Below, piece after piece: positions 2,555-45,240 of a stretch of DNA of 64,000 nucleotides; the first letter of the stretch is position 1, and each line of letters opens with the position of its first letter. Under the pieces are notes generated by a model. The model did not search any database and was not told the origin of the DNA. It saw nothing but the letters and a program-made list of their open reading frames with translations. Source of the DNA: Corynebacterium crudilactis. GTDB taxonomy: Bacteria > Actinomycetota > Actinomycetes > Mycobacteriales > Mycobacteriaceae. A program made the translations under genes and the position numbers. The stretch is from contig NZ_CP015622.1 of assembly GCF_001643015.1 (NCBI RefSeq), positions 1,005,358-1,069,357 of the forward strand. The letters run 5' to 3'.

Positions 2555-4284
2555 GATTGGGCCTGCGCAGTCTCTTGAGAATCCACAATTTCTTTATAGG
2601 TGGTGCACGTTTTTAATAAGTTCTCGTGATTGCCAATCCCTGCGATTTCTCCATTCTCAAGCACCACAATTTGATCAGCATCTCGGATGGTACTGACACG
2701 TTGCGCCACAATCAGCTTGGTGGCATTCGGCAAATGAGTACTCAAAGCTCTACGAAGTGCTGCGTCAGTGCTGACGTCCAATGCAGAGAAAGAATCATCA
2801 AAGATATAGATCTCAGGCTGCTTCAATAATGCTCGAGCGATTGCTAAGCGTTGTCGTTGTCCACCGGAGACATTGGTGCCACCCTGCGCGATCTCGGAAT
2901 CAAGCCCATCAGGTAACTCACGAACGAAATCTGTTGCCTGGGCAATAGCGAGAGCTTCCCAGAGCTGCGCGTCGGTTGCTTCTTCATTGCCGTAGCGCAG
3001 GTTGCTGGCGATCGTTCCAGAAAAGAGGAAAGACTTCTGCGGAACCAAACCAATTCGTGACCATAGCTCCAGTGGCTCAAAATCACGCACATTGGTGCCA
3101 TCGACAGTGATAACGCCTTCGGTGGCGTCGAAAAGCCGCGGTACCAGGCCGATCAGCGTTGACTTGCCCGCACCCGTGGAACCAATGATTGCTGTGGTGC
3201 TGCCAGGTTTCACCTGGAAGCTGACACTGTTGAGTACTGGTTCATCAGCGCCGGGGAAAGCGAAAGTAGCTTTGTTAAAGACAATCTCTCCGGTGCTTTT
3301 TGCTGGTGTAATTGGTTTCTCAGGTGCTTTGACAGACAGCGTGGCATGAAGCACTTCACCAACACGATCAGCTGATACAGCAGCGCGGGGCACCATGACA
3401 AACATGAAGGCCGCCATCATCACACCCATGAGAATCTGCATGATGTACTGCAAAAAGGCGAAAAGCGTGCCAATTTGCGTTTCGCCGGATTCCACTTGGA
3501 AAGCGCCAAACCAAATAACGGCAACTGCCGAAAGGTTCATCACCAGCATCACTGCGGGAAACATCAATGCCATGAGATTACCGGTGCGAAGACCAATCTC
3601 CGCGACGTTCTTACTCGCGGTAGTAAAACGCTCATGCTCTTCATCCTCACGGACAAAAGCACGGATCACACGGATACCAGTGAGCTGCTCTCGCATGATC
3701 TGATTAATACGGTCGATGCGCTTTTGCATAAGTTGGAACATGGGCACCATGCGCACAATAATCAGCGACACAATGATGATGAGCGCTGGAATACTGACCA
3801 CCATGAGCCACGACAAACCCAGATCTTGGCGAACAGCCATGATAATGCCGCCGATAGCCAGCATCGGTGCAGAAATCATCAAGGTGGATGTCATCTGAAC
3901 CAACATCTGGATTTGCTGGACATCGTTGGTATTGCGGGTGATCAGTGATGGAGCACCAAATTGACCCATCTCGCGTTCGGAGAAGTTCACCACTTTGTCA
4001 AAGATTGCCGCACGCAGATCGCGGCCCACACTCATGGCGAGCTTGGAACCGAAATAAACACCGGCAATGGCGCAGGCAACTTGAATTAAAGTAAGTGCCA
4101 GCATGATGCCACCAGTGCGCCAAATATATCCGATATCGCCTGTGACCACACCATTGTCAATGATGTCTGCGTTGAGCGTTGGCAACCACAGTGAGGTAAT
4201 TGATTGCGCTAATTGAAAAATAATGACCGCTAAAATTAACGGCCATGCGGGTTTAAGAAACCTCACTAATAAAGACCACAGCAT
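2551..4284 (-). CDS. ABC exporter half-transporter, degenerate-site subunit
   Basis: A 577-aa half-transporter: membrane domain about residues 10-310, ATPase domain about 335-577. Walker A (GSTGAGKST) is at 368-376 and the canonical signature VSGGQ at 472-476. Walker B ends in IFDD, with Asp497 where the catalytic Glu should be, and the switch position is Gln528 (VAQRVS) instead of His. This is the usual pattern of the non-catalytic partner in heterodimeric exporters such as TM287/288 or BmrCD. It is first in a two-gene operon with the 655-aa subunit (4-bp overlap). Confidence 0.92.
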   Translation of the reverse strand: MLWSLLVRFLKPAWPLILAVIIFQLAQSITSLWLPTLNADIIDNGVVTGDIGYIWRTGGIMLALTLIQVACAIAGVYFGSKLAMSVGRDLRAAIFDKVVNFSEREMGQFGAPSLITRNTNDVQQIQMLVQMTSTLMISAPMLAIGGIIMAVRQDLGLSWLMVVSIPALIIIVSLIIVRMVPMFQLMQKRIDRINQIMREQLTGIRVIRAFVREDEEHERFTTASKNVAEIGLRTGNLMALMFPAVMLVMNLSAVAVIWFGAFQVESGETQIGTLFAFLQYIMQILMGVMMAAFMFVMVPRAAVSADRVGEVLHATLSVKAPEKPITPAKSTGEIVFNKATFAFPGADEPVLNSVSFQVKPGSTTAIIGSTGAGKSTLIGLVPRLFDATEGVITVDGTNVRDFEPLELWSRIGLVPQKSFLFSGTIASNLRYGNEEATDAQLWEALAIAQATDFVRELPDGLDSEIAQGGTNVSGGQRQRLAIARALLKQPEIYIFDDSFSALDVSTDAALRRALSTHLPNATKLIVAQRVSTIRDADQIVVLENGEIAGIGNHENLLKTCTTYKEIVDSQETAQAQS

Positions 4285-16851: not shown

Positions 16852-17847
16852 ATGAAGTCTGCCAGCTTGTTGTGGTGTCATTCCGGAGTAGCGACAGTTC
16901 ATTTAGATAAGATGATTTTCACTCTTGTTGCAGGTGATTTACTGTTTGCGCCAGAAGCAGCATTCATTGATGATGATTCTCAAGGTCTTGTACTAGATAT
17001 TTGCTTTGAGAAATTAGCAATAACTGGTCCAGCGCGTCGAATCCATCTTGGACAGACCTGGAATGACCGTTTGACCTTTGAGTACAGCCGTTCTCTTTTG
17101 GGTAAAGATACGCTATCGGCAGATATCGTCAAGCTTTTTACTGACCGTGTGCCGACCCCGCCGCTTCCATCTCCTCGGAAAGCTCGCGCTGTGGCACAGG
17201 TTTTGGTGTCTAATCCAGCTGATCAAACTAGTTTGGATGAGTTTGCGGTACTACATCAGATTTCGGGGCGCACGCTGCAGCGTCAATTCCTCAAATCCAC
17301 AGGGTATACGTTCAGTGAGTGGCGTGCTGCCCAGCGTGTATGCGTCGCAGCGAGCCTGCTGGCTCATGACTTCAGCATTTCAGTGGTTGCGAACCTCGTC
17401 GGGTTCGCCGCAACGAGCAGCTTGACCAGAGCTTTTCGACGCCACACTGGTGCAACTCCCTCCGCCTTTACTAATGGGCAGATCGGCATGGGCACTGTAG
17501 GCCAACCATCACTTATTCCAGCGACAACAACTTTTGCCCAATTAGCCCAGGACCAACAGTTGTGGATTTACAGTGGCACTGCAACGGTGACGACGCCAGG
17601 ATATTGTAGGTTCTTAGGCCAAGGCGATATGGTCACGATTCCAGCTGCAACTCATACTCGTATTGATATCGCAGCTGGATCTATCGCGCTCCCTGTACCT
17701 GTTGGATTTGATGAGCGGGAGATGGAACTCCCGCGTGTGGTGGCTGCTCATAATCAGCACCGGAAACCTTTGCGAGTCCTTGAGGAATCTGAATGGAAAC
17801 AGCTAAGTGAGGAACTTCTTAATACTCCAGTACCTGTGCAGATCTAA
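16852..17847 (+). CDS. ripA: AraC-family regulator RipA (repressor of iron proteins)
   Basis: 331 aa, the length of C. glutamicum RipA. The AraC-type double helix-turn-helix is in the middle (about 110-207), with [22 protein letters not shown] and [24 protein letters not shown]. Cupin-like sensor segments lie on both sides. In C. glutamicum RipA represses iron-rich enzymes (aconitase, succinate dehydrogenase, nitrate reductase, catalase) under iron limitation. A DtxR box directly upstream supports the assignment. The ATG follows GAGGGTG. Confidence 0.92.
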
Positions 17848-17954
17848 GAGGTAGTAAACAGATAAAAATAGTTCTTAACGTGGGGAACTATACTGATCCT
17901 TGATGCGTTATTTGATTGAATAGCGAAAATCTAACTGAAAGGATCGGGGACCCC

Positions 17955-18776
17955 GTGCGAAGCAGCAATCCCGTTTTTAGTTCCCTTACGGAAACCAAAC
18001 GTCCACAAGGCCAGAACCCATACGGTGGTTACGACAACTTCGGTGGTGCCTACCAGCAAAACGTAGCTCCGCAGAAGGCGGAGCGCCCAATGACCGTCGA
18101 TGATGTGATCACCAAAACTGGTATCACTCTCGCGGTTATTATTGTTTTTGCCCTCGTCACCGCCGGCACATGGCTGTTTATTAGTCCTGGTCTCGGTATG
18201 ATCCTGACGATTGTCGGTGCTATCGGCGGATTTATCACTGTTTTGGTCAGTACTTTTGGTAAGAAGTATGGATCTGCAGCCGTCACCTTGATTTACGCTG
18301 TGTTTGAAGGCCTTTTTGTTGGTGGCATTTCACTGTTGCTTTCTGGTTTCACCGTTGGCAATTCTAATGCTGGTGGACTCATCGGGCAGGCAGTTCTTGG
18401 CACTATCGGTGTGTTCATCGGAATGCTCTTTGTGTACAAGACTGGTGCCATCAAGGTCACCCCTAAGTTCAACCGCATCATGACTGGCATGATGGTCGGC
18501 GTTTTGGTGCTTGTCTTGGGTAATGTTGTCTGGGCATTGTTCACTGGTGGTGCAAGCCCACTGCGTGATGGCGGAGTAATCGCGATTGTTTTCTCCCTCT
18601 TCTGCATCGGCCTGGCAGCGTTTAGCTTCCTTTCTGATTTTGATGCAGCTGACCGTCTCGTACGTGAAGGTGCACCAGCAAAGATGGCTTGGGGCGTTGC
18701 GCTCGGCCTGGCCGTGACCTTGGTGTGGTTGTACACCGAGATCCTGCGTCTGCTGAGCTATTTCCAGAACCGCTAA
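17955..18776 (+). CDS. Bax inhibitor-1/YccA-like membrane protein
   Basis: 273 aa from GTG 17955, chosen because GAAAGGATCGGGG precedes it; a TTG at 17916 would add 13 residues. A Gly/Tyr/Gln-rich cytoplasmic N terminus (NPYGGYDNFGGAYQQN) is followed by seven hydrophobic helices from about residue 60 on, as in the Bax1-I/YccA family (DUF4870/BI-1-like). Family members are linked to ion leak and stress protection, but no function is established for the corynebacterial protein. It is monocistronic, ending in a strong terminator shared with the convergent lipoprotein gene. Confidence 0.85.
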   Translation: MRSSNPVFSSLTETKRPQGQNPYGGYDNFGGAYQQNVAPQKAERPMTVDDVITKTGITLAVIIVFALVTAGTWLFISPGLGMILTIVGAIGGFITVLVSTFGKKYGSAAVTLIYAVFEGLFVGGISLLLSGFTVGNSNAGGLIGQAVLGTIGVFIGMLFVYKTGAIKVTPKFNRIMTGMMVGVLVLVLGNVVWALFTGGASPLRDGGVIAIVFSLFCIGLAAFSFLSDFDAADRLVREGAPAKMAWGVALGLAVTLVWLYTEILRLLSYFQNR

Positions 18777-18784
18777 ATACTGAA

Positions 18785-18830
18785 AAACAATAATGGCTCC
18801 GACTTGAAAAAGTCGGAGCCATTATTGTTT
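18785..18830. terminator. Bidirectional terminator
   Basis: A perfect 21-bp inverted repeat (18785-18805 with 18810-18830) around a GAAA tetraloop, with an A tract on the left and T-rich sequence on the right. It can serve both the membrane protein gene (+) and the lipoprotein gene (-). Confidence 0.92.
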
Positions 18831-18838
18831 GTCTTTAT

Positions 18839-19282
18839 TTAAAGAAAGACAACCTGTCCATCTACAGTGACCTGGGTAAATACTAGGCCTTGGGAAGACT
18901 GGGTAGGGAAGGAGAGCTTAACCGCAACGTCTTCAGTTTCGGTCTCTTCACCAGTGTCTGAAACTACTACGCGGGTACCGGTTCCAGTTGCAGAATCAGC
19001 AGTCCACGCACTCCAAGAAATATCAGTCAGCTGGTCAATGTCCATGGCGCAGTTGAGGGAGATTTCAGAAGGCTGCTGAGTAGGTGCAGCCACGCAATCG
19101 ATGTAGCCTGGTGCATCCGTTGCTGCTGCAGTGGAAGTGCTCTTTGCTGGGGCTTTGACACCAGTTGCGGTTGCAACCTTCAGATCAGAGTCATTCTGAT
19201 TTGGTGGGGTACATGCAACGAGAGCGATTGCAGCCAGAGCGGTGGCGCCAGTGGCGAAGAACTTACGAGAAAGAGTAGTCAT
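18839..19282 (-). CDS. Secreted lipoprotein of unknown function
   Basis: 147 aa. The N terminus has a signal peptide ending in lipobox LVAC (Cys24), so the mature protein should be lipid-anchored. A Ser/Thr/Ala-rich linker (about 35-55) leads to a small C-terminal domain with two cysteines (IDCVAA, LNCAMD) that may form a disulfide, and beta-rich sequence to the end. This resembles small DUF4333-like actinobacterial lipoproteins, but I do not recognise it firmly. It is downstream of greA on the same strand with a 21-bp gap, so co-transcription is likely. Confidence 0.75.
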   Translation of the reverse strand: MTTLSRKFFATGATALAAIALVACTPPNQNDSDLKVATATGVKAPAKSTSTAAATDAPGYIDCVAAPTQQPSEISLNCAMDIDQLTDISWSAWTADSATGTGTRVVVSDTGEETETEDVAVKLSFPTQSSQGLVFTQVTVDGQVVFL

Positions 19283-19303
19283 TTTTAAACTATGAATCCT
19301 TGG

Positions 19304-19828
19304 TTAGTTATTGCTGCGCAGTGCAGCTGCCTTTGCAGAGTTGTATGGTTCTGCAGACACGACGGTCACAGAGATTACGGAACCATTTGGTGAGTTGTAC
19401 TGGCGAGTTTCGCCTTCCTGAGCGCCGAGAATGGCAGCACCTAGTGGAGACTGCTCAGAGTAGGTCTCAAGATCTGGGTTCTCAGATGCGCCAGCGCGGG
19501 TACCGATGAGGAAGGTTTCCTTATCGCTGTGGTCACCGTCGTAGTAGACGTGAACAACGGAACCTACGTGTGCAACACCTTCGATGATGCCTTCACGCTC
19601 AGTGGTGGCGTTTGCAAGCAATTCAGAGATCTGCTTGATGCGAGCCTCTTCTTGGTCCTGCATTTCACGAGCTGCATCGTAGCCAGCGTTTTCTTTGAGG
19701 TCGCCCTCTTCGCGGCGCTCATTGATTTCTGCAGCAACTGCAGGGCGGTTTGCGATGAGAGCGTTGAGCTCTTCCTCTAGCTTGGCCTTGGTTTCTGGTG
19801 TGATGTATTGCTTGCTTACACTTGCCAT
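19304..19828 (-). CDS. greA: Transcription elongation factor GreA
   Basis: 174 aa. The N-terminal coiled coil (residues about 9-80) with TPETKAKLEEELNAL and the REEGDLKENAGYDAAREMQ motif carries the acidic tip that enters the RNA polymerase secondary channel. The FKBP-like C-terminal domain ends in SPLGAAILGAQEGETRQY. GreA stimulates transcript cleavage in backtracked complexes. The ATG follows AGGAGGGTAA. It lies downstream of the DUF4307 gene past a hairpin and upstream of the lipoprotein gene. Confidence 0.95.
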   Translation of the reverse strand: MASVSKQYITPETKAKLEEELNALIANRPAVAAEINERREEGDLKENAGYDAAREMQDQEEARIKQISELLANATTEREGIIEGVAHVGSVVHVYYDGDHSDKETFLIGTRAGASENPDLETYSEQSPLGAAILGAQEGETRQYNSPNGSVISVTVVSAEPYNSAKAAALRSNN

Positions 19829-19894
19829 AATTACTTACCCTCCTGGGGAACAGTAGAGGTGGATCATCGGAAAAACAGAGAATAAAATCATAAG

Positions 19895-19920
19895 ATTGGC
19901 CCCGGCTGTCCGGGGCCAAT
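19895..19920 (-). terminator. Hairpin between the DUF4307 gene and greA
   Basis: A perfect 11-bp stem ATTGGCCCCGG (19895-19905) and CCGGGGCCAAT (19910-19920) with loop CTGT. In the gene direction it is followed by a T-rich stretch, which fits a terminator after the DUF4307 gene ahead of the greA promoter. Confidence 0.75.
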
Positions 19921-19999
19921 AGGCTTAACTTTTACGGTAACTATTTACCGACGATGTCAACGTACGTTTCTGCTGCAAATTTTAGCACAGCAAATTTTT

Positions 20000-37326: not shown

Positions 37327-38748
37327 CTAGAAGTTGTTCTTGCGCTCGGTGTGAGCCATAGCGAGAACGTCGAGGCGCTTGTCCAGCTCTTCCTCCGTAA
37401 GCTTCACGCCATCAACCAAGCCCATATCAATGACAGTCTGGCGGATGGTCTTGCCCTCTGCCAGAGCGGTTTTAGCGACCTTCGCAGCAGCTTCGTAGCC
37501 GATTGCGGAGTTCAGTGGGGTGACGATGGAAGGTGAAGACTCAGCGAGCTGCTTCATGTGCTCTTCGTTTGGCTCGATGCCATCTACAAGGCGGGTAGCG
37601 AACACGCGGGAGGTATTAGCCAGCAGGCGAGCAGACTCAAGCACGTTGCGAGCCATCACTGGGATGAACACGTTGAGCTCGAACTGGCCCTGGGTACCGG
37701 AGAATGCAACAGCTGCATCGTTGCCGATAACCTGAGCGGAAACCTGGGTAGCGGTTTCGCACAGAACTGGGTTGACCTTGCCTGGCATGATGGAAGAACC
37801 TGGCTGCAGATCTGGAAGACGAATCTCGCCAAGACCGGTCAGTGGGCCAGAGCCCATCAGACGGATATCATTAGCGATCTTGTACAGGGAAACAGCGATA
37901 ACACGCATTGCGCCGGAGAACTCAACAAGAGCATCGCGAGCAGCCTGAGCCTCGAAGTGGTTCTCAGCCTCCTTGAGCTCCTTGACCTCAGTGAGGTTGA
38001 TGAGCTCAGCAACGACCTTGCCGCCGAAATCAGCGGAGGTGTTGATACCGGTACCAGCAGCGGTGCCACCGATTGCCAGCTCGCCCAAGCGAGGAAGAGT
38101 TGCCTCAACGCGCTCGATACCAAGCTGAATCTGGCGAGCGTAACCACCGAATTCCTGGCCTAGGGTAACTGGAACAGCATCCATGAGGTGGGTACGGCCG
38201 GATTTTACAACCTCAGCCCACTCATTCGCCTTCTTAGCCAAGGACTCGTGCAAGACCTTCAGGCCTGGAATGAGGTCATTGACAGCAGCTTCGGTTGCAG
38301 CAACGTGAGTTGCAGTTGGGAAGGTGTCATTGGAGGACTGGCCCATGTTCACGTGGTCATTAGGGTGAACCTCAACGCCGTTAGCCTTCGCGATGGAAGC
38401 GATAACCTCATTGGTGTTCATGTTGGAGGAAGTACCGGAACCAGTCTGGAACACATCAATTGGGAACTCTGCATCGTGCTTACCGGATGCGATTTCCTTG
38501 CCTGCTGCGATGATGGCATCTGCCTTATCGCCATCCAGCGCACCAGAATCCTTGTTTACCTGTGCACATGCTGCCTTCAGCAGGCCCATTGCACGGATCT
38601 GTGCAGATTCCAGACCGCGACCAGAGATCGGGAAGTTCTCCACTGCACGCTGAGTCTGTGCTTGCCACAGAGCCTTTGCTGGGACCTTCACTTCACCCAT
38701 GGTGTCGTGTTCAATACGGAATTCCTGCTCGGTCATGAAATCACTCAT
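37327..38748 (-). CDS. fumC: Fumarase, class II
   Basis: 473 aa from ATG 38748; a start at the fifth codon ([16 protein letters not shown], 38736) gives 469 aa as in C. glutamicum Fum. It interconverts fumarate and malate in the TCA cycle. The superfamily signature [11 protein letters not shown] is present, with [32 protein letters not shown] and the catalytic TAAGTGINT region. Codon use is that of a highly expressed gene. It is single, not part of an operon. Confidence 0.97.
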
Positions 38749-38931
38749 TTCTTACTGAGAATTAAATCGGCTGTCACAAGCTTACCTTCCTCGTAAGTGA
38801 TAAACACCAGGGTACCCACCAAAAGTGGGGTAGCTCCCTAAAGAGAGGTCTTAAATACTTCGTAGCTAAACTGAGTTAGAGTGTTCTTTCCTTATATTTT
38901 GCAACAAACTCAACCAAAAAAAGGGGTCATA

Positions 38932-39702
38932 ATGCATGATTCTGAAGATCTTTCGGGCGCAGTGTCTTTGACTAATAATGCTGCGAATCAGGAACTATTC
39001 CGTGACAATATGCGCGCTTTGTTGGTTCGTAGTTTGGGAGTGCGAGATCGTGAAGATTCTCTCGTCGCTCAAATCGCCGGAGACGTCGGTATGCGGATCA
39101 TTGAAGGTGAACTCTTGCCTGGTGATGAAGTGAATTCTGTTGGATTAGCAAAGCAATTTGGCACCAGTAGAACTCCCGTCCGTGAGGCATTATTGCTTTT
39201 GGAAAAGCACCGGATGGTGGAAGTTCCCGCGCGCCGTCGGCCACGGGTCTCTGAAGTCCATGATGTTTCAATTAAAGAGCTCTATCACGCGCGAGCATTG
39301 CTCACTGGTTATATGTCTGCGGCAGTGTGTAATAACTGGTCAGGTAATGATTTAGAGCCAGTGCGGGAAAAGATCTCGCAAATGGTTCAAGCTTGTGAAG
39401 CCAACGATGTAAATGCGTTTTTCTGGGCGAATATCACCATGGGAGAAATTGCTACGAACATTGCTGGCAATAGTATTGTTGCTGGATTTATTGATTCTGT
39501 TGGCTTATCTAGCCTGCGTTTACGTCGAAAGTCAATGACATTACCTGGAAGGATGCAGGAATCTACGCGAGATCATGAGCGCTTGTTGCTTGCTTTTGAG
39601 CGCCGTGACGGACAGCTAGCTAAGGCTTTATCCATGGGGATTATCCGAGATGCGTATCTCGCTCTGACTAAAGATGATCCGCGGAATTGGAATATGTCTT
39701 AA
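38932..39702 (+). CDS. GntR-family regulator next to the TRAP/CoA-transferase block
   Basis: 256 aa from ATG 38932 (AAGGGG upstream). The winged helix (about 45-115) has IIEGELLPGDEVNSVGLAKQFGTSRTPVREALLLLEKHRMVEV. The second half is a helical FCD-type ligand domain. It is convergent with the CoA-transferase remnant and separated from it by a shared terminator. It probably controls the TRAP cluster, but no operator is proven. This block sits between fumC and glpX, a position where I recall different genes in C. glutamicum ATCC 13032. Confidence 0.85.
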   Translation: MHDSEDLSGAVSLTNNAANQELFRDNMRALLVRSLGVRDREDSLVAQIAGDVGMRIIEGELLPGDEVNSVGLAKQFGTSRTPVREALLLLEKHRMVEVPARRRPRVSEVHDVSIKELYHARALLTGYMSAAVCNNWSGNDLEPVREKISQMVQACEANDVNAFFWANITMGEIATNIAGNSIVAGFIDSVGLSSLRLRRKSMTLPGRMQESTRDHERLLLAFERRDGQLAKALSMGIIRDAYLALTKDDPRNWNMS

Positions 39703-39751: not shown

Positions 39752-40519
39752 CTAGTCCACCGAAACCTTTTGCAGTGGCGCTGTCACGATGCCTGCGGAA
39801 AGTAGGTTATCGATTTCCTCGGGGGTTTTGCCCAGCACAGTCTGCAAGATGTCGGCAGTGTGCTCACCGAGAGCTGGTGGGAAGGTATCCGAACCGCGAG
39901 GAGCACGAGATAGCTTAATTGGGTTGCCGAGGGTCTTCACGGAAGTTCCGTTGTCATCTGCAAGTTCAACAACCATGTCGCGGTGCAAGACTTGTGGGGA
40001 AGTCAAAGCTAGGTCAAGGGTATTAACCATTCCTACTGGGATGCCAGCTTCGTTGAAAAGTCGGACCCATTCTGCGGCTTCTTTGGTAAGGAATGCCGGT
40101 TCGATAATGCTCCACAGTGCTTCTTTGTTTTTCAGTCGATCGCGGTTGAGTGTGAAGCGAGGGTCTTCAAGAAGCTCTGGGTGTCCCAGCACCTCTGCCA
40201 TGGCCTTCCACATACGCTCGGTGTTAGCGGTGGTGACAATGTCGCGCCCATCGCCGGCGGTGAACTGGCGGTAAGTAGGAATCGCATCGTGTCCGCTACC
40301 TTGGAGTCCCGGTACAGCGCCAGATTCTAGGTAGTAAGTGCCCTGGTAGGACAGCATTGTCACCAGGCAGTCGAGCATGGAGATGTCGATGAATTCTCCT
40401 TGGCCGGTTTCTTTGACGTTGTGCAGTGCTGCCAAAATGCCGATGACGGCGTGCAGTCCTGCAGCCAGGTCGCCGACAGGGATGCCGGTGCGCACTGGGT
40501 GTCCGCCGCGTTCGCCTGT
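39752..40519 (-). pseudogene. CaiB/BaiF CoA-transferase, 5'-truncated remnant
   Basis: About 255 codons of a class III CoA-transferase: TGERGGHPVRTGIPVGDLAAGLHAVIGILAAL, GEFIDISMLDCLVTMLSYQG and the C-terminal domain are intact. Family members have about 400 residues, so about 145-150 N-terminal residues, including the usual CoA-binding start, are missing. Reading upstream in frame meets TAG (40522-40520) right at the fusion to dctM. A GTG at 40495 would give 247 aa, but no ribosome site supports it. The likely cause is a deletion joining the gene to dctM. The substrate acid is unknown; the TRAP transporter next to it suggests a dicarboxylate-type acid. Confidence 0.82.
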
Positions 40520-41756
40520 CTACGTCTAGCGCATTCAGTGTAGGGAGCATCACAGGAACACTGAGCAGCATCAGTGAGATGGGGTCCATAAACATGCCAA
40601 GCACGATCATGATGATGAGAGCTGCGATGACGAACTGGGTACTGGATAGTCCCATGGATTCGATCCACTCGGTGAACAGGAATGGGATGCCACTTAACGC
40701 CAGCATTCGGGTGACAAATGCTGCACCAATCAGGAGGAAGAACACGCCGCCGGTGGCATAAACGGTTCCGGCAAGAGCGCTACCGATGGTGGATAGGAAC
40801 TCGCGGCCTTTGTACGCCATAGCAATCAGTATGGCACCGATACAGCCGACTGCTGCAGCTTCTGTGGCGGTAAAGAAGCCGCCATACATGCCACCAAGGA
40901 TGATTGTGACCAGAATTGGCAAAGGCCAGACCTGGCCAAGTGATACCCAACGTGCTTTCCATCCAACAGCAGGTAATTTTTCTCCAGCAACTGATGGAAA
41001 TGCAATGGCCAAGATGATGATAGCTGCGTTAACTACTAGGGCCAGGAGGATTCCGGGAATAACACCGGCGAGCAACTGTGGGCCAACCGGAAGGTTTGCA
41101 ATTCCGGCATAAACTACCAGTAAGAGGCTAGGTGGGATCAGCTGACCAGGAAGGCCTGCCATGATCACAGAACCCAGGGCCAGGCGCTTGTCGTATCCAG
41201 ATTTCAACATTTCAGGGATACCAATTCGGCTAATCGCATAAGCAATGCCAATGGTAGATCCACTGGCAGCGGCCAAACCTGCACCGGCCATATTGGTGGT
41301 AACTGCAAGTCCACCCGGCAGCCAATTTAGCCAGGCACGTGCAGCATCGAAAATGCGTGTTGTGGCTCCACTTTTCCATAGCAGCAGACCCATGAAAATG
41401 AACATGGGAATGACTGAAAGTGACCAGCTTGCTCCATTGGCTGCAGGGAGATCGACCAGGCTGCGTTCTACTACTGATGATCCACTAATGCGCCAGATAC
41501 CGAGGATTCCAGCGATGCCCATGGCGACGGCGATAGGAACTTTCCAGGCCATCAGGGTGAGGAGCAAAACTAGGCAAACACCGGCTACTTGATATTTTGT
41601 GGTCAAAAGACCTGAGAAAATCAGCCCTACTTCTCCGAGGAGAATGACGGCCATGATGGTTAGCGTGATTGACGTAGGTTTGCTGGACTTTTTAAGAGAG
41701 CCTAAAGCTGCATTTTCGACGCTAGGTGTCGGTTTTGTTTGCACTGCTAAAGTCAT
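40518..41756 (-). pseudogene. dctM: TRAP transporter large permease DctM, 3'-truncated
   Basis: 413 recognisable codons of the 12-helix TRAP large subunit: WKVPIAVAMGIAGI, FIFMGLLLWKSG, GLAAASGSTIGIAYAISRIGIPEM and MDPISLMLLSVPVMLPTLNALDVD. Right after ALDVD the homology stops; the frame runs 73 nonsense Arg/His/Pro-rich codons to 40296 through the CoA-transferase gene in another frame. Intact DctM proteins continue about 70 residues with another helix. The frame starts with a 4-bp overlap with dctQ. The transporter is therefore probably inactive. Confidence 0.82.
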
Positions 41757-42391
41757 TTGTTTGTGCTCCTTTCAGAAGAGTCTTCTGCCACCAGTTGTGT
41801 TTCTAGATCTGCCAATACATCAGCTTCTTCACCAGTAGCGTCCATTTCAGCGGAAAGTACGGCGTCTTTATTGACTAATAATTGGATGATGTTGGCGACG
41901 ACGACGAGGAAGAAAGCGAGGCAGGCTAGTGGGATCGCAAAGCGAGGAGGCCACACGGTGACACCGGTGGAGGAGTCATACTCTCCCACAGACATCTGTT
42001 CGAGAGCATTGTTGAAACCAGCCCAACCGATCATTAATACGAAAATGCCGGTGAATGTTAATGCCACGATGGACATAATTTGCTGTCCGCGAGGAGTGAG
42101 ACGCTCGTAGACGAGTGGGAGATCGGTATGCTCACCGTAGTGTTGTGCTGCTGCAATCCCAAAGAAGACGAGTGGAAGCATCCACCAGAAGGAAACAAAC
42201 TGGTTGGTGCCTTGAATTGGCATGTTGAGGCCGAACCGTAATGCCACATCCAAAAACACATTTATAACCATTCCAAAGGCTGCCACCGCACCTAAGACAA
42301 TGGAAAGACGGATGAGGATTTTGACCGATAGATCAATTCCACGGATCAAAGAACTTGGTTGCTCTGCCTGAGTCTTAAGTGTGCTACTCAT
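41753..42391 (-). CDS. dctQ: TRAP transporter small permease DctQ
   Basis: 212 aa. Four hydrophobic helices (about 33-52, 66-85, 106-127, 145-170) and the small-subunit motif NQFVSFWWMLPLVFFGIAAAQHYGEHT. In TRAP systems it joins DctM to form the sodium-driven permease fed by DctP. The acidic C-terminal tail (ADVLADLETQLVAEDSSE) is cytoplasmic. Its stop overlaps the dctM start by 4 bp, and it lies 24 bp after dctP. Confidence 0.88.
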   Translation of the reverse strand: MSSTLKTQAEQPSSLIRGIDLSVKILIRLSIVLGAVAAFGMVINVFLDVALRFGLNMPIQGTNQFVSFWWMLPLVFFGIAAAQHYGEHTDLPLVYERLTPRGQQIMSIVALTFTGIFVLMIGWAGFNNALEQMSVGEYDSSTGVTVWPPRFAIPLACLAFFLVVVANIIQLLVNKDAVLSAEMDATGEEADVLADLETQLVAEDSSERSTNK

Positions 42392-42415
42392 GTCTATCCT
42401 TTAATGGTTGCGGGA

Positions 42416-43663
42416 TTAGGAGAGTGTGTTGAAGATTTCTTCATCGAGCTTGTCTGCCCATGGCTGGAGATCTACAGAATCTGTGCCAAGGGATGTTGCC
42501 CAATCCTGGTGATTGGCGTATCCGCCGTCGTAGCCAAGGTCTTCGACGATGCCGACCCACTTTTCACGGAGCTGCTCGTATTCGGTGACTGCCGCATTGG
42601 AATCAGAGACTGCTGCTGGTGGGTTATCAATCATGTCCTGGCGAACTTGTGCGAAGTGGGAATCTAACGCTTGCTGTAGATCTGCCGCTGGCTCGTGGTA
42701 ATTCAGTGCCATGGCATCCTGCTCTTGGTGGAAACGCTTCTGTTCATCGAAGTAACCGGTGTAGTAGATCTTGAGGAATTCAGCGCGGTTATCGTCGAAA
42801 GCAGCTTTTTGCTCTGCGGTCAGGGAATCCATGAAGTTATTGGAGGAAGCTAGGGAGATAGAACTCCAACCAGGGAAATCGACCTTGGTGAAGTTCTTTC
42901 CAATTTCCCAGAGGCCAAGGCCAGTCATGTCGGGTTCTGCGCCAACGAAGCAGTCGACGACTCCACGTTCAAAGCCTTCATAAATTTCTGCGCCGGACAG
43001 GGTTACGGGAGTCATTCCTAGAGCGGTGACTGCCTTGGAGTACATTTCGCCACCGACACGGACTCGTTTACCGCGTGTATCTTCGAGAGATTCCACGGGC
43101 TCTTTGCAAAGCATCTGGTAGTTATCATGATTTTGGAAACGTGGGATAAGCGGATAAATACCCTGGTCACTTAGTTCGTTAGATACCTCAGGGTGGTTAT
43201 ATGCCCATTCAATGGCAGCAGCGGCATTGGCCAGGAGACCCACGACAGGTCGATCATCGCCGCCGTATCCAAGCTGGGCTGCCCAAGCATCAATTGGGAA
43301 AGACGCGGGAGTGTAGGCCATTCCTAGATAGCCAAGATCGATGATTCCACCGGTGATGCTGGTGGCAACCTCAGGTTGTTTGACGAGGGAATCGGCGAAG
43401 TAATGCTCGAATGTCAGCTCACCATTGGATGCTTCAGAGACGACATCGCCGAACTGTGTCATAGCCGTGCTCATCATATGATCGGGACCATATGGTGGGT
43501 TTGCCTTAACCACTACGTTGGCGCCGGGGTCTGCGGATCCTTCAGCAGCTAGACCGCCACCACCACAAGCTGTAAGAGCCAATGCGGAGACAAGCGCAGT
43601 TGTGGATAAAAAGCCACGCTTAATACAGCGGGAGTGGAGCGCTGACGTAAAACCAGAAACCAT
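42416..43663 (-). CDS. dctP: TRAP transporter solute-binding lipoprotein DctP
   Basis: 415 aa from ATG 43663 (AAAGGGGAATCAC upstream). A signal peptide ends in lipobox LTAC (Cys about 33), so the protein is membrane-anchored outside the cell. The DctP fold is visible: RFQNHDNYQMLCKEPVESLEDTRGKRVRVGGEMYSKAVTALGMTPVTLSGAEIYEGFERGVVDCFVG, with the conserved Arg region that binds the substrate carboxylate. It probably binds an organic acid; the exact ligand is unknown. First gene of dctP-dctQ-dctM'-CoA-transferase'. Confidence 0.88.
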   Translation of the reverse strand: MVSGFTSALHSRCIKRGFLSTTALVSALALTACGGGGLAAEGSADPGANVVVKANPPYGPDHMMSTAMTQFGDVVSEASNGELTFEHYFADSLVKQPEVATSITGGIIDLGYLGMAYTPASFPIDAWAAQLGYGGDDRPVVGLLANAAAAIEWAYNHPEVSNELSDQGIYPLIPRFQNHDNYQMLCKEPVESLEDTRGKRVRVGGEMYSKAVTALGMTPVTLSGAEIYEGFERGVVDCFVGAEPDMTGLGLWEIGKNFTKVDFPGWSSISLASSNNFMDSLTAEQKAAFDDNRAEFLKIYYTGYFDEQKRFHQEQDAMALNYHEPAADLQQALDSHFAQVRQDMIDNPPAAVSDSNAAVTEYEQLREKWVGIVEDLGYDGGYANHQDWATSLGTDSVDLQPWADKLDEEIFNTLS

Positions 43664-44064: not shown

Positions 44065-45069
44065 TTAGGTAGTAGTGGTGTAATCCACTACGGAGTATTC
44101 CTGGAGCTTAGCGAGCTGGTGCACAGACTCAATGTGGCGGATGGTTCCAGACTTGGAACGCATAACCAATGAGCGAGTGGTGGCGCCGTTAGCGCGGTAG
44201 GAGACACCACGAAGCATGTCACCGTTGGTGACACCGGTTGCTACGAAGTAGCAGTTGTCGGAGCTGACGAGGTCATTGGTATGCAAGACTTTGTTGAGCT
44301 CGAGGCCTGCATCGGCTGCCTTCTGGCGTTCGAAGTCATTCATTGGCGCCAGGATTCCCTGGATTTCGCCACCCATGCACTTCATTGCACAAGCGGTGAT
44401 GATGCCTTCTGGGGTACCACCAGTGCCCATCATCATGTCTACAGAGTTGGAAGCCTGTGCTGCTGCAACTGCACCTGCAACGTCGCCGTCAGAGATGAGA
44501 CGAACCTTTGCTCCTGCACGGCGAATGTCAGAGATCAATTCGATGTGGCGAGGGCGGTCAAGGACAATAACGGTGACATCGGAAGCATTGATGCCCTTGG
44601 CTTTTGCCACTGCGTTGATGTTGTGTGCAACTGGAGCTTCAATATCAACCTTTCCAGCAGCTTCAGGTCCAACGGCCAGCTTTTTCATGTAGAAAACTGC
44701 GGAAGGATCGTACATGGAGCCACGCTCGGCAGCTGCAAGTACGGAAATTGCGTTGGGACGGCCTTCGGCCATCAAGGTTGTTCCATCAACTGGGTCAACT
44801 GCGATGTCTACTTCAGCGCCAAAGCCGGTTCCGACCTCTTCGCCGTTATACAGCATTGGAGCTTCGTCTTTTTCGCCTTCACCGATGACAACGACGCCGC
44901 GCATGGCTACAGAGTTGATGAGTTGACGCATGGCATCGACAGCGGCACCGTCACCTTCGTTTTTCATACCGCGTCCAACCCAGCGTCCGGAAGCCAAGGC
45001 TGCAGCTTCCGTAACTCGCACCAGTTCCATTGCGAGGTTACGGTCCGGCATTTCGGCGTTAAGGTTCAT
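44065..45069 (-). CDS. glpX: Fructose-1,6-bisphosphatase, class II
   Basis: 334 aa from ATG 45069, behind AGGAGG; the longer frame is rejected. It removes the 1-phosphate of fructose 1,6-bisphosphate in gluconeogenesis and is the sole FBPase known in C. glutamicum. GlpX motifs: [32 protein letters not shown] with the metal-binding DPxDGT, and [22 protein letters not shown]. It is divergent from the DUF4245 gene, as in mycobacteria. Codon use suggests strong expression. Confidence 0.96.
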
Positions 45070-45240
45070 GTGAAGGGCCTCCTGGGGGCACTTGATCCGA
45101 CCTAGGGTAACTAGGCGCGTTATTGAAGTATCGACGCTTGGGTGTTTCACCCGCACTTTATCCATTGTTGCACTTTTGTGTCCGTAGTTTTGGTTTCTGG
45201 ACACCCAAAAGGGGGACTGGGGGCAAAGTCATGCCATACT

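Follow-up and report, generated by a model that had tools for sequence, protein, structure and literature searches.

A deletion scar joining truncated dctM and class III CoA-transferase genes in Corynebacterium crudilactis

Bacterial deletion and pseudogenisation scars left by illegitimate recombination have a recognizable form. Two unrelated half genes abut, microhomology at the junction is short or absent, the genes that lay in between are missing, and relatives retain the intact arrangement. The scar described here touches two protein families. Class III (CaiB/BaiF, PF02515) CoA-transferases include SUGCT and formyl-CoA transferase, and in the latter the catalytic role of an aspartate, Asp169, is established. 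TRAP transporters are composed of the DctP, DctQ and DctM proteins. A literature search found nothing.

The DNA analysed here, called the window, is a stretch of 64,000 nucleotides from C. crudilactis (genome G000, contig NZ_CP015622.1). The locus lies between fum (37327-38748) and glpX (44065-45204), both named from sequence. Next to fum there is a complete gene for a GntR/FCD regulator (38932-39702, plus strand; PF00392 and PF07729), with an ATG at 38932 that is preceded by AAAGGGG; the mechanically listed open reading frame starts from a GTG at 38881. The regulator is divergent from the dct and transferase genes, which are on the minus strand, and it adjoins fum also in G187, G157, G145, G044 and G046 (tblastn). 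At the other end, dctQ (41753-42391, minus strand, 212 aa, PF04290) has a complete frame and is 75% identical to its G187 counterpart over the full length (tblastn). The same holds for the frame of dctP (42416-43663, minus strand, 415 aa, PF03480), which is 80-82% identical to the G046 and G157 sequences over nearly the full length (tblastn).

Between these genes, the match to one gene gives way to the match to another at a single point (40518-40520; blastn and tblastn). Read on the minus strand, DctM homology extends as far as NALDVD, whose second Asp is encoded at 40518-40520. The CoA-transferase homology begins at TGERGG in a different frame, with the Thr codon at 40517-40519, and the codon just before it, as read from the sequence, is an in-frame TAG (40520-40522). 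In blastn comparisons with the G187 locus L073, window positions 39810-40519 align with 3555-4264 (76.8% identity) and positions 40519-43075 align with 17377-19986 (75.1%), so that both alignments break at one window base, 40519. On the dctM side, the break is also at 40518-40519 against loci L074, L078 and L075. The sequence-only reading had proposed a fusion at about 40518 with a frame change and a TAG, and the blastn and tblastn breaks at 40518-40520, together with the Pfam matches, confirm it.

The ends of the breakpoint can be read from the aligned flanks of G187, G046, G157 and G088, which have ..CCGGT[C/G]AGGCT.. on the transferase side and ..AG[A/G]TCCAC.. on the dctM side. Together with the blastn breakpoints, they place the junction at 40518-40520, where the bases GTC, up to 3 bp, may be attributed to either side. 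Short direct repeats at the ends, for which the earlier reading suggested looking, are not present in the aligned flanks beyond this microhomology. Chance alone quite commonly produces a match of 2-3 bp, which therefore identifies no mechanism.

Both genes are truncated. The 3' part of the transferase gene (39752-40519, minus strand, 255 codons) corresponds to residues 163-417 of the intact protein in G187, which is 417 aa long, with 81% identity, and lacks the N-terminal 162 residues; the open reading frame as mechanically listed is 39752-40495, from a GTG at 40495. Its CoA_transf_3 match starts only at position 148 of the 366 in the Pfam profile. The 5' part of dctM, which encodes the large TRAP permease (40518-41756, minus strand, 413 codons), aligns with residues 10-423 of G187 DctM (507 aa), with 85% identity, and the C-terminal 84 residues are gone. 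The Pfam match of the window DctM stops at profile position 351 of 413, whereas that of the intact G187 protein reaches 383. The dctM open reading frame continues beyond the junction (40296-41756, 486 aa), although the Pfam match stops at residue 414; the out-of-frame tail, read from transferase DNA (40296-40517, minus strand), adds 73 Arg-rich residues without homology. The truncation of both genes was thus correctly recognized from the sequence, but the losses, then put at about 70 DctM and 145 transferase residues, were underestimated.

Both truncated products are expected to be inactive, to judge from the parts that are missing. The expected catalytic Asp, D150 in G187 numbering, is in the lost part of the transferase, since the fragment starts only at residue 163; in alignments this residue falls on the YD motif that formyl-CoA transferase and SUGCT have. 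The lost part of DctM includes a TPPVG stretch, at which the solved TRAP permeases have TPPMG in the alignment, and the C-terminal membrane region is incomplete.

The full arrangement is preserved between fum and glpX in G187, where it is continuous (L073 and L094; blastn). The positions homologous to the breakpoints are L073 4264 and 17377, 13.1 kb apart. Relative to G187, the missing segment comprises at least 10 whole genes, the 5' half of the transferase gene and the 3' end of dctM. The missing genes encode an SDR, an ALDH, an MmgE/PrpD protein, an Amidohydro_2 amidohydrolase, a ferredoxin, a second SDR, a CYP199-like P450, a third SDR, an MBL-fold lactonase or hydrolase, a ferredoxin reductase with Reductase_C, and an AbrB-like membrane protein. 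These identities are from Pfam domains, except for the ferredoxin, a 106-aa [2Fe-2S] ferredoxin-like open reading frame (L073 9508-9828) with a cysteine motif read by eye. The solved structures nearest to the G187 P450 are CYP199 enzymes. As an observation in its own right, L073 4838-17120 presents an intact CYP199-like P450, ferredoxin, reductase, SDR, ALDH, MmgE and amidohydrolase cluster together with a TRAP transporter. The comparison with an intact relative that the earlier reading had called for thus gives good support to a single deletion inactivating both genes, as first proposed, but the deletion is not a small one between neighbouring genes, and its extent had been underestimated.

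The missing DNA is absent elsewhere in G000. The 13.1 kb of G187 DNA gives only five matches in this genome, of 76-186 bases, and no orthologous copy on any contig; translocation of the segment within the genome was rejected on this basis. With the G187 P450 as query, no orthologue was found in G000, only paralogues of 25-28% identity. A search of the plasmid collection returned a single distant match of 157 bp.

The genes that remain do not look eroded. The sequence-only reading regarded dctP, dctQ and the regulator gene as relics in decay, yet all three frames are open in G000, with no frameshift or stop. Nonsynonymous distances (dN) were compared alone, because saturation at synonymous sites in several of the pairs made dN/dS ratios untrustworthy. 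For the dctM part, dN is 0.092 between G000 and G187 and 0.091 between G187 and G046; for the transferase part, it is 0.103 between G000 and G046 and 0.102 between G187 and G046. Distances to G088, an outlier, are all much the same, and most pairs with G000 do not exceed those between lineages with intact clusters. For gntR and dctQ, dN is slightly higher in some pairs (dctQ, 0.192 for G000-G046 against 0.156 for G187-G046), as it is for dctP (0.106 against 0.074 for G157-G046), but these increases track the larger synonymous divergence of G000. Since dN is not raised, decay of dctP, dctQ and gntR is not supported. As a rough argument, prolonged neutral evolution on the branch leading to G000 would be expected to show in these distances, which leaves either a recent deletion or remnants that remain under constraint. 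The equal nonsynonymous distances favour recency, and the deletion is probably recent on the species time scale.

The 4.8 kb region was found in seven of the 242 genus genomes searched, G000 included, and no other genome among the 242 shares the G000 junction. In the metagenome-assembled genome G046, pieces of the cluster are on three contigs (C58, C164 and C186). In G088, the cluster genes are in another order and at another place in the chromosome (blastn and tblastn); the cluster, far from fum and rearranged (L075), has thus moved between chromosomal sites. Genome G145, which we take to be C. efficiens YS-314, has a different scar, in which CoA-transferase residue 221 is joined to DctQ residue 62 at a shared 10-bp repeat, GGTGCCCTGG, and dctP has a frame break late in the gene. 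The resulting in-frame chimera (L076 6920-7690; DctQ residues 1-62 and CoA-transferase residues 221-417, 256 aa) could appear in annotations as a genuine gene. Genome G157, presumably C. gallinarum (record NZ_JACSPR010000008.1), lacks the stretch from SDR1 to the P450 and most of the transferase. At the site of the lost transferase 5' end and P450 half, it carries a Fic-domain-like open reading frame (L074 7606-8292), with HPFREGNGR read by eye. In G044, only shattered transferase and dctP pieces are left (tblastn). No remnant was detected by blastn or tblastn between fum and glpX of G212 (which we assume to be C. glutamicum ATCC 13032), G090, G117 and G205.

In the fum and glpX trees, in which most forks are moderately supported, G000 groups with G212 and G090, and G145 groups with G157. 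The nearest relatives of G000 thus lack the cluster, and its history within the clade is only partly traced. A G145 deletion nested in a G000-like one was considered and rejected, as the sister genome G157 retains dctM with its 3' end, AbrB, FdR, MBL and SDR3. As the breakpoints differ and G157 keeps what a G000-like deletion would remove, the cluster was broken independently in G000 and G145 at the least.

It is highly probable, judging from these genome comparisons, that a single deletion joined dctM codon 423 to CoA-transferase codon 163 (G187 numbering) and removed some 13 kb of the catabolic cluster, centred on a P450, which relatives carry between fum and glpX. The junction, the two truncated genes, the intact G187 arrangement, the absence of the missing DNA elsewhere in G000 and the open frames of the remaining genes are shown directly, whereas the inactivity of both truncated products, the loss of the pathway and the recent date are inferred. 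The size and the gene list are estimates, since the ancestral cluster is reconstructed from other species that are about 75% identical. A single strain represents this species. The deletion would have been an illegitimate recombination event that involved little or no homology. Loss in several successive steps, for example starting with the P450 half, appears unlikely, although G157, which lacks that half, shows that the cluster can be lost in part: only one junction is visible, which makes one event the simplest account, even if earlier internal deletions would leave no trace. Assemblies can also lose segments, and the strain might still have the 13 kb if the assembler had joined the ends wrongly. 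Such a misjoin is very unlikely, as G000 is assembled into 3 contigs totalling 3.2 Mb, with a completeness of 99.99%, the missing DNA is on no contig, and G145, G157 and G044 have natural deletions at the same cluster. Moreover, no more than about 3 bp are common to the two ends, which rules out a long repeat that could have collapsed, the usual cause of this type of error.

The truncated genes might instead still make useful proteins, with the short transferase C-terminal domain and the chimeric DctM under selection. The 255 transferase codons are free of stops, nonsynonymous change is not raised, and G145 keeps a similar C-terminal part in its DctQ fusion. A recent deletion accounts equally well for the open frame, however, and the transferase has lost the N-terminal portion of its fold together with the Asp expected to be catalytic, DctM lacks a conserved part of its membrane region and carries the Arg-rich tail, and the transferase remnant is shattered in G044. 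Selection for such products is very unlikely. It is a similarly faint prospect that the transferase C-terminal half, which separate deletions have left in place in G000 and in G145, still serves a purpose by itself, for example as a short expressed protein or in a role tied to the adjoining conserved GntR regulator.

This reading corrects the annotation to two pseudogenes instead of short functional genes, and the strain is predicted to be unable to run the P450-centred pathway. With respect to the known families, the window dctP and dctQ products are complete TRAP family members by Pfam, and DctM differs in ending before the conserved TPPVG stretch. Both the transferase remnant and the intact orthologue in G187 are members of the class III CoA-transferases, from which the remnant differs by the absence of its N-terminal part with the expected catalytic residue; the NCBIfam scores of the intact protein are far under every equivalog cut-off and thus assign no substrate. 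The junction is a real deletion scar, larger than first proposed, and a case of ordinary reductive evolution by gene loss. It has the general form of known bacterial deletion scars and is not unusual among them. The same cluster has been broken independently in several related species, which adds an example of one catabolic cluster repeatedly lost in the C. glutamicum and C. efficiens group to what is otherwise ordinary genome erosion.
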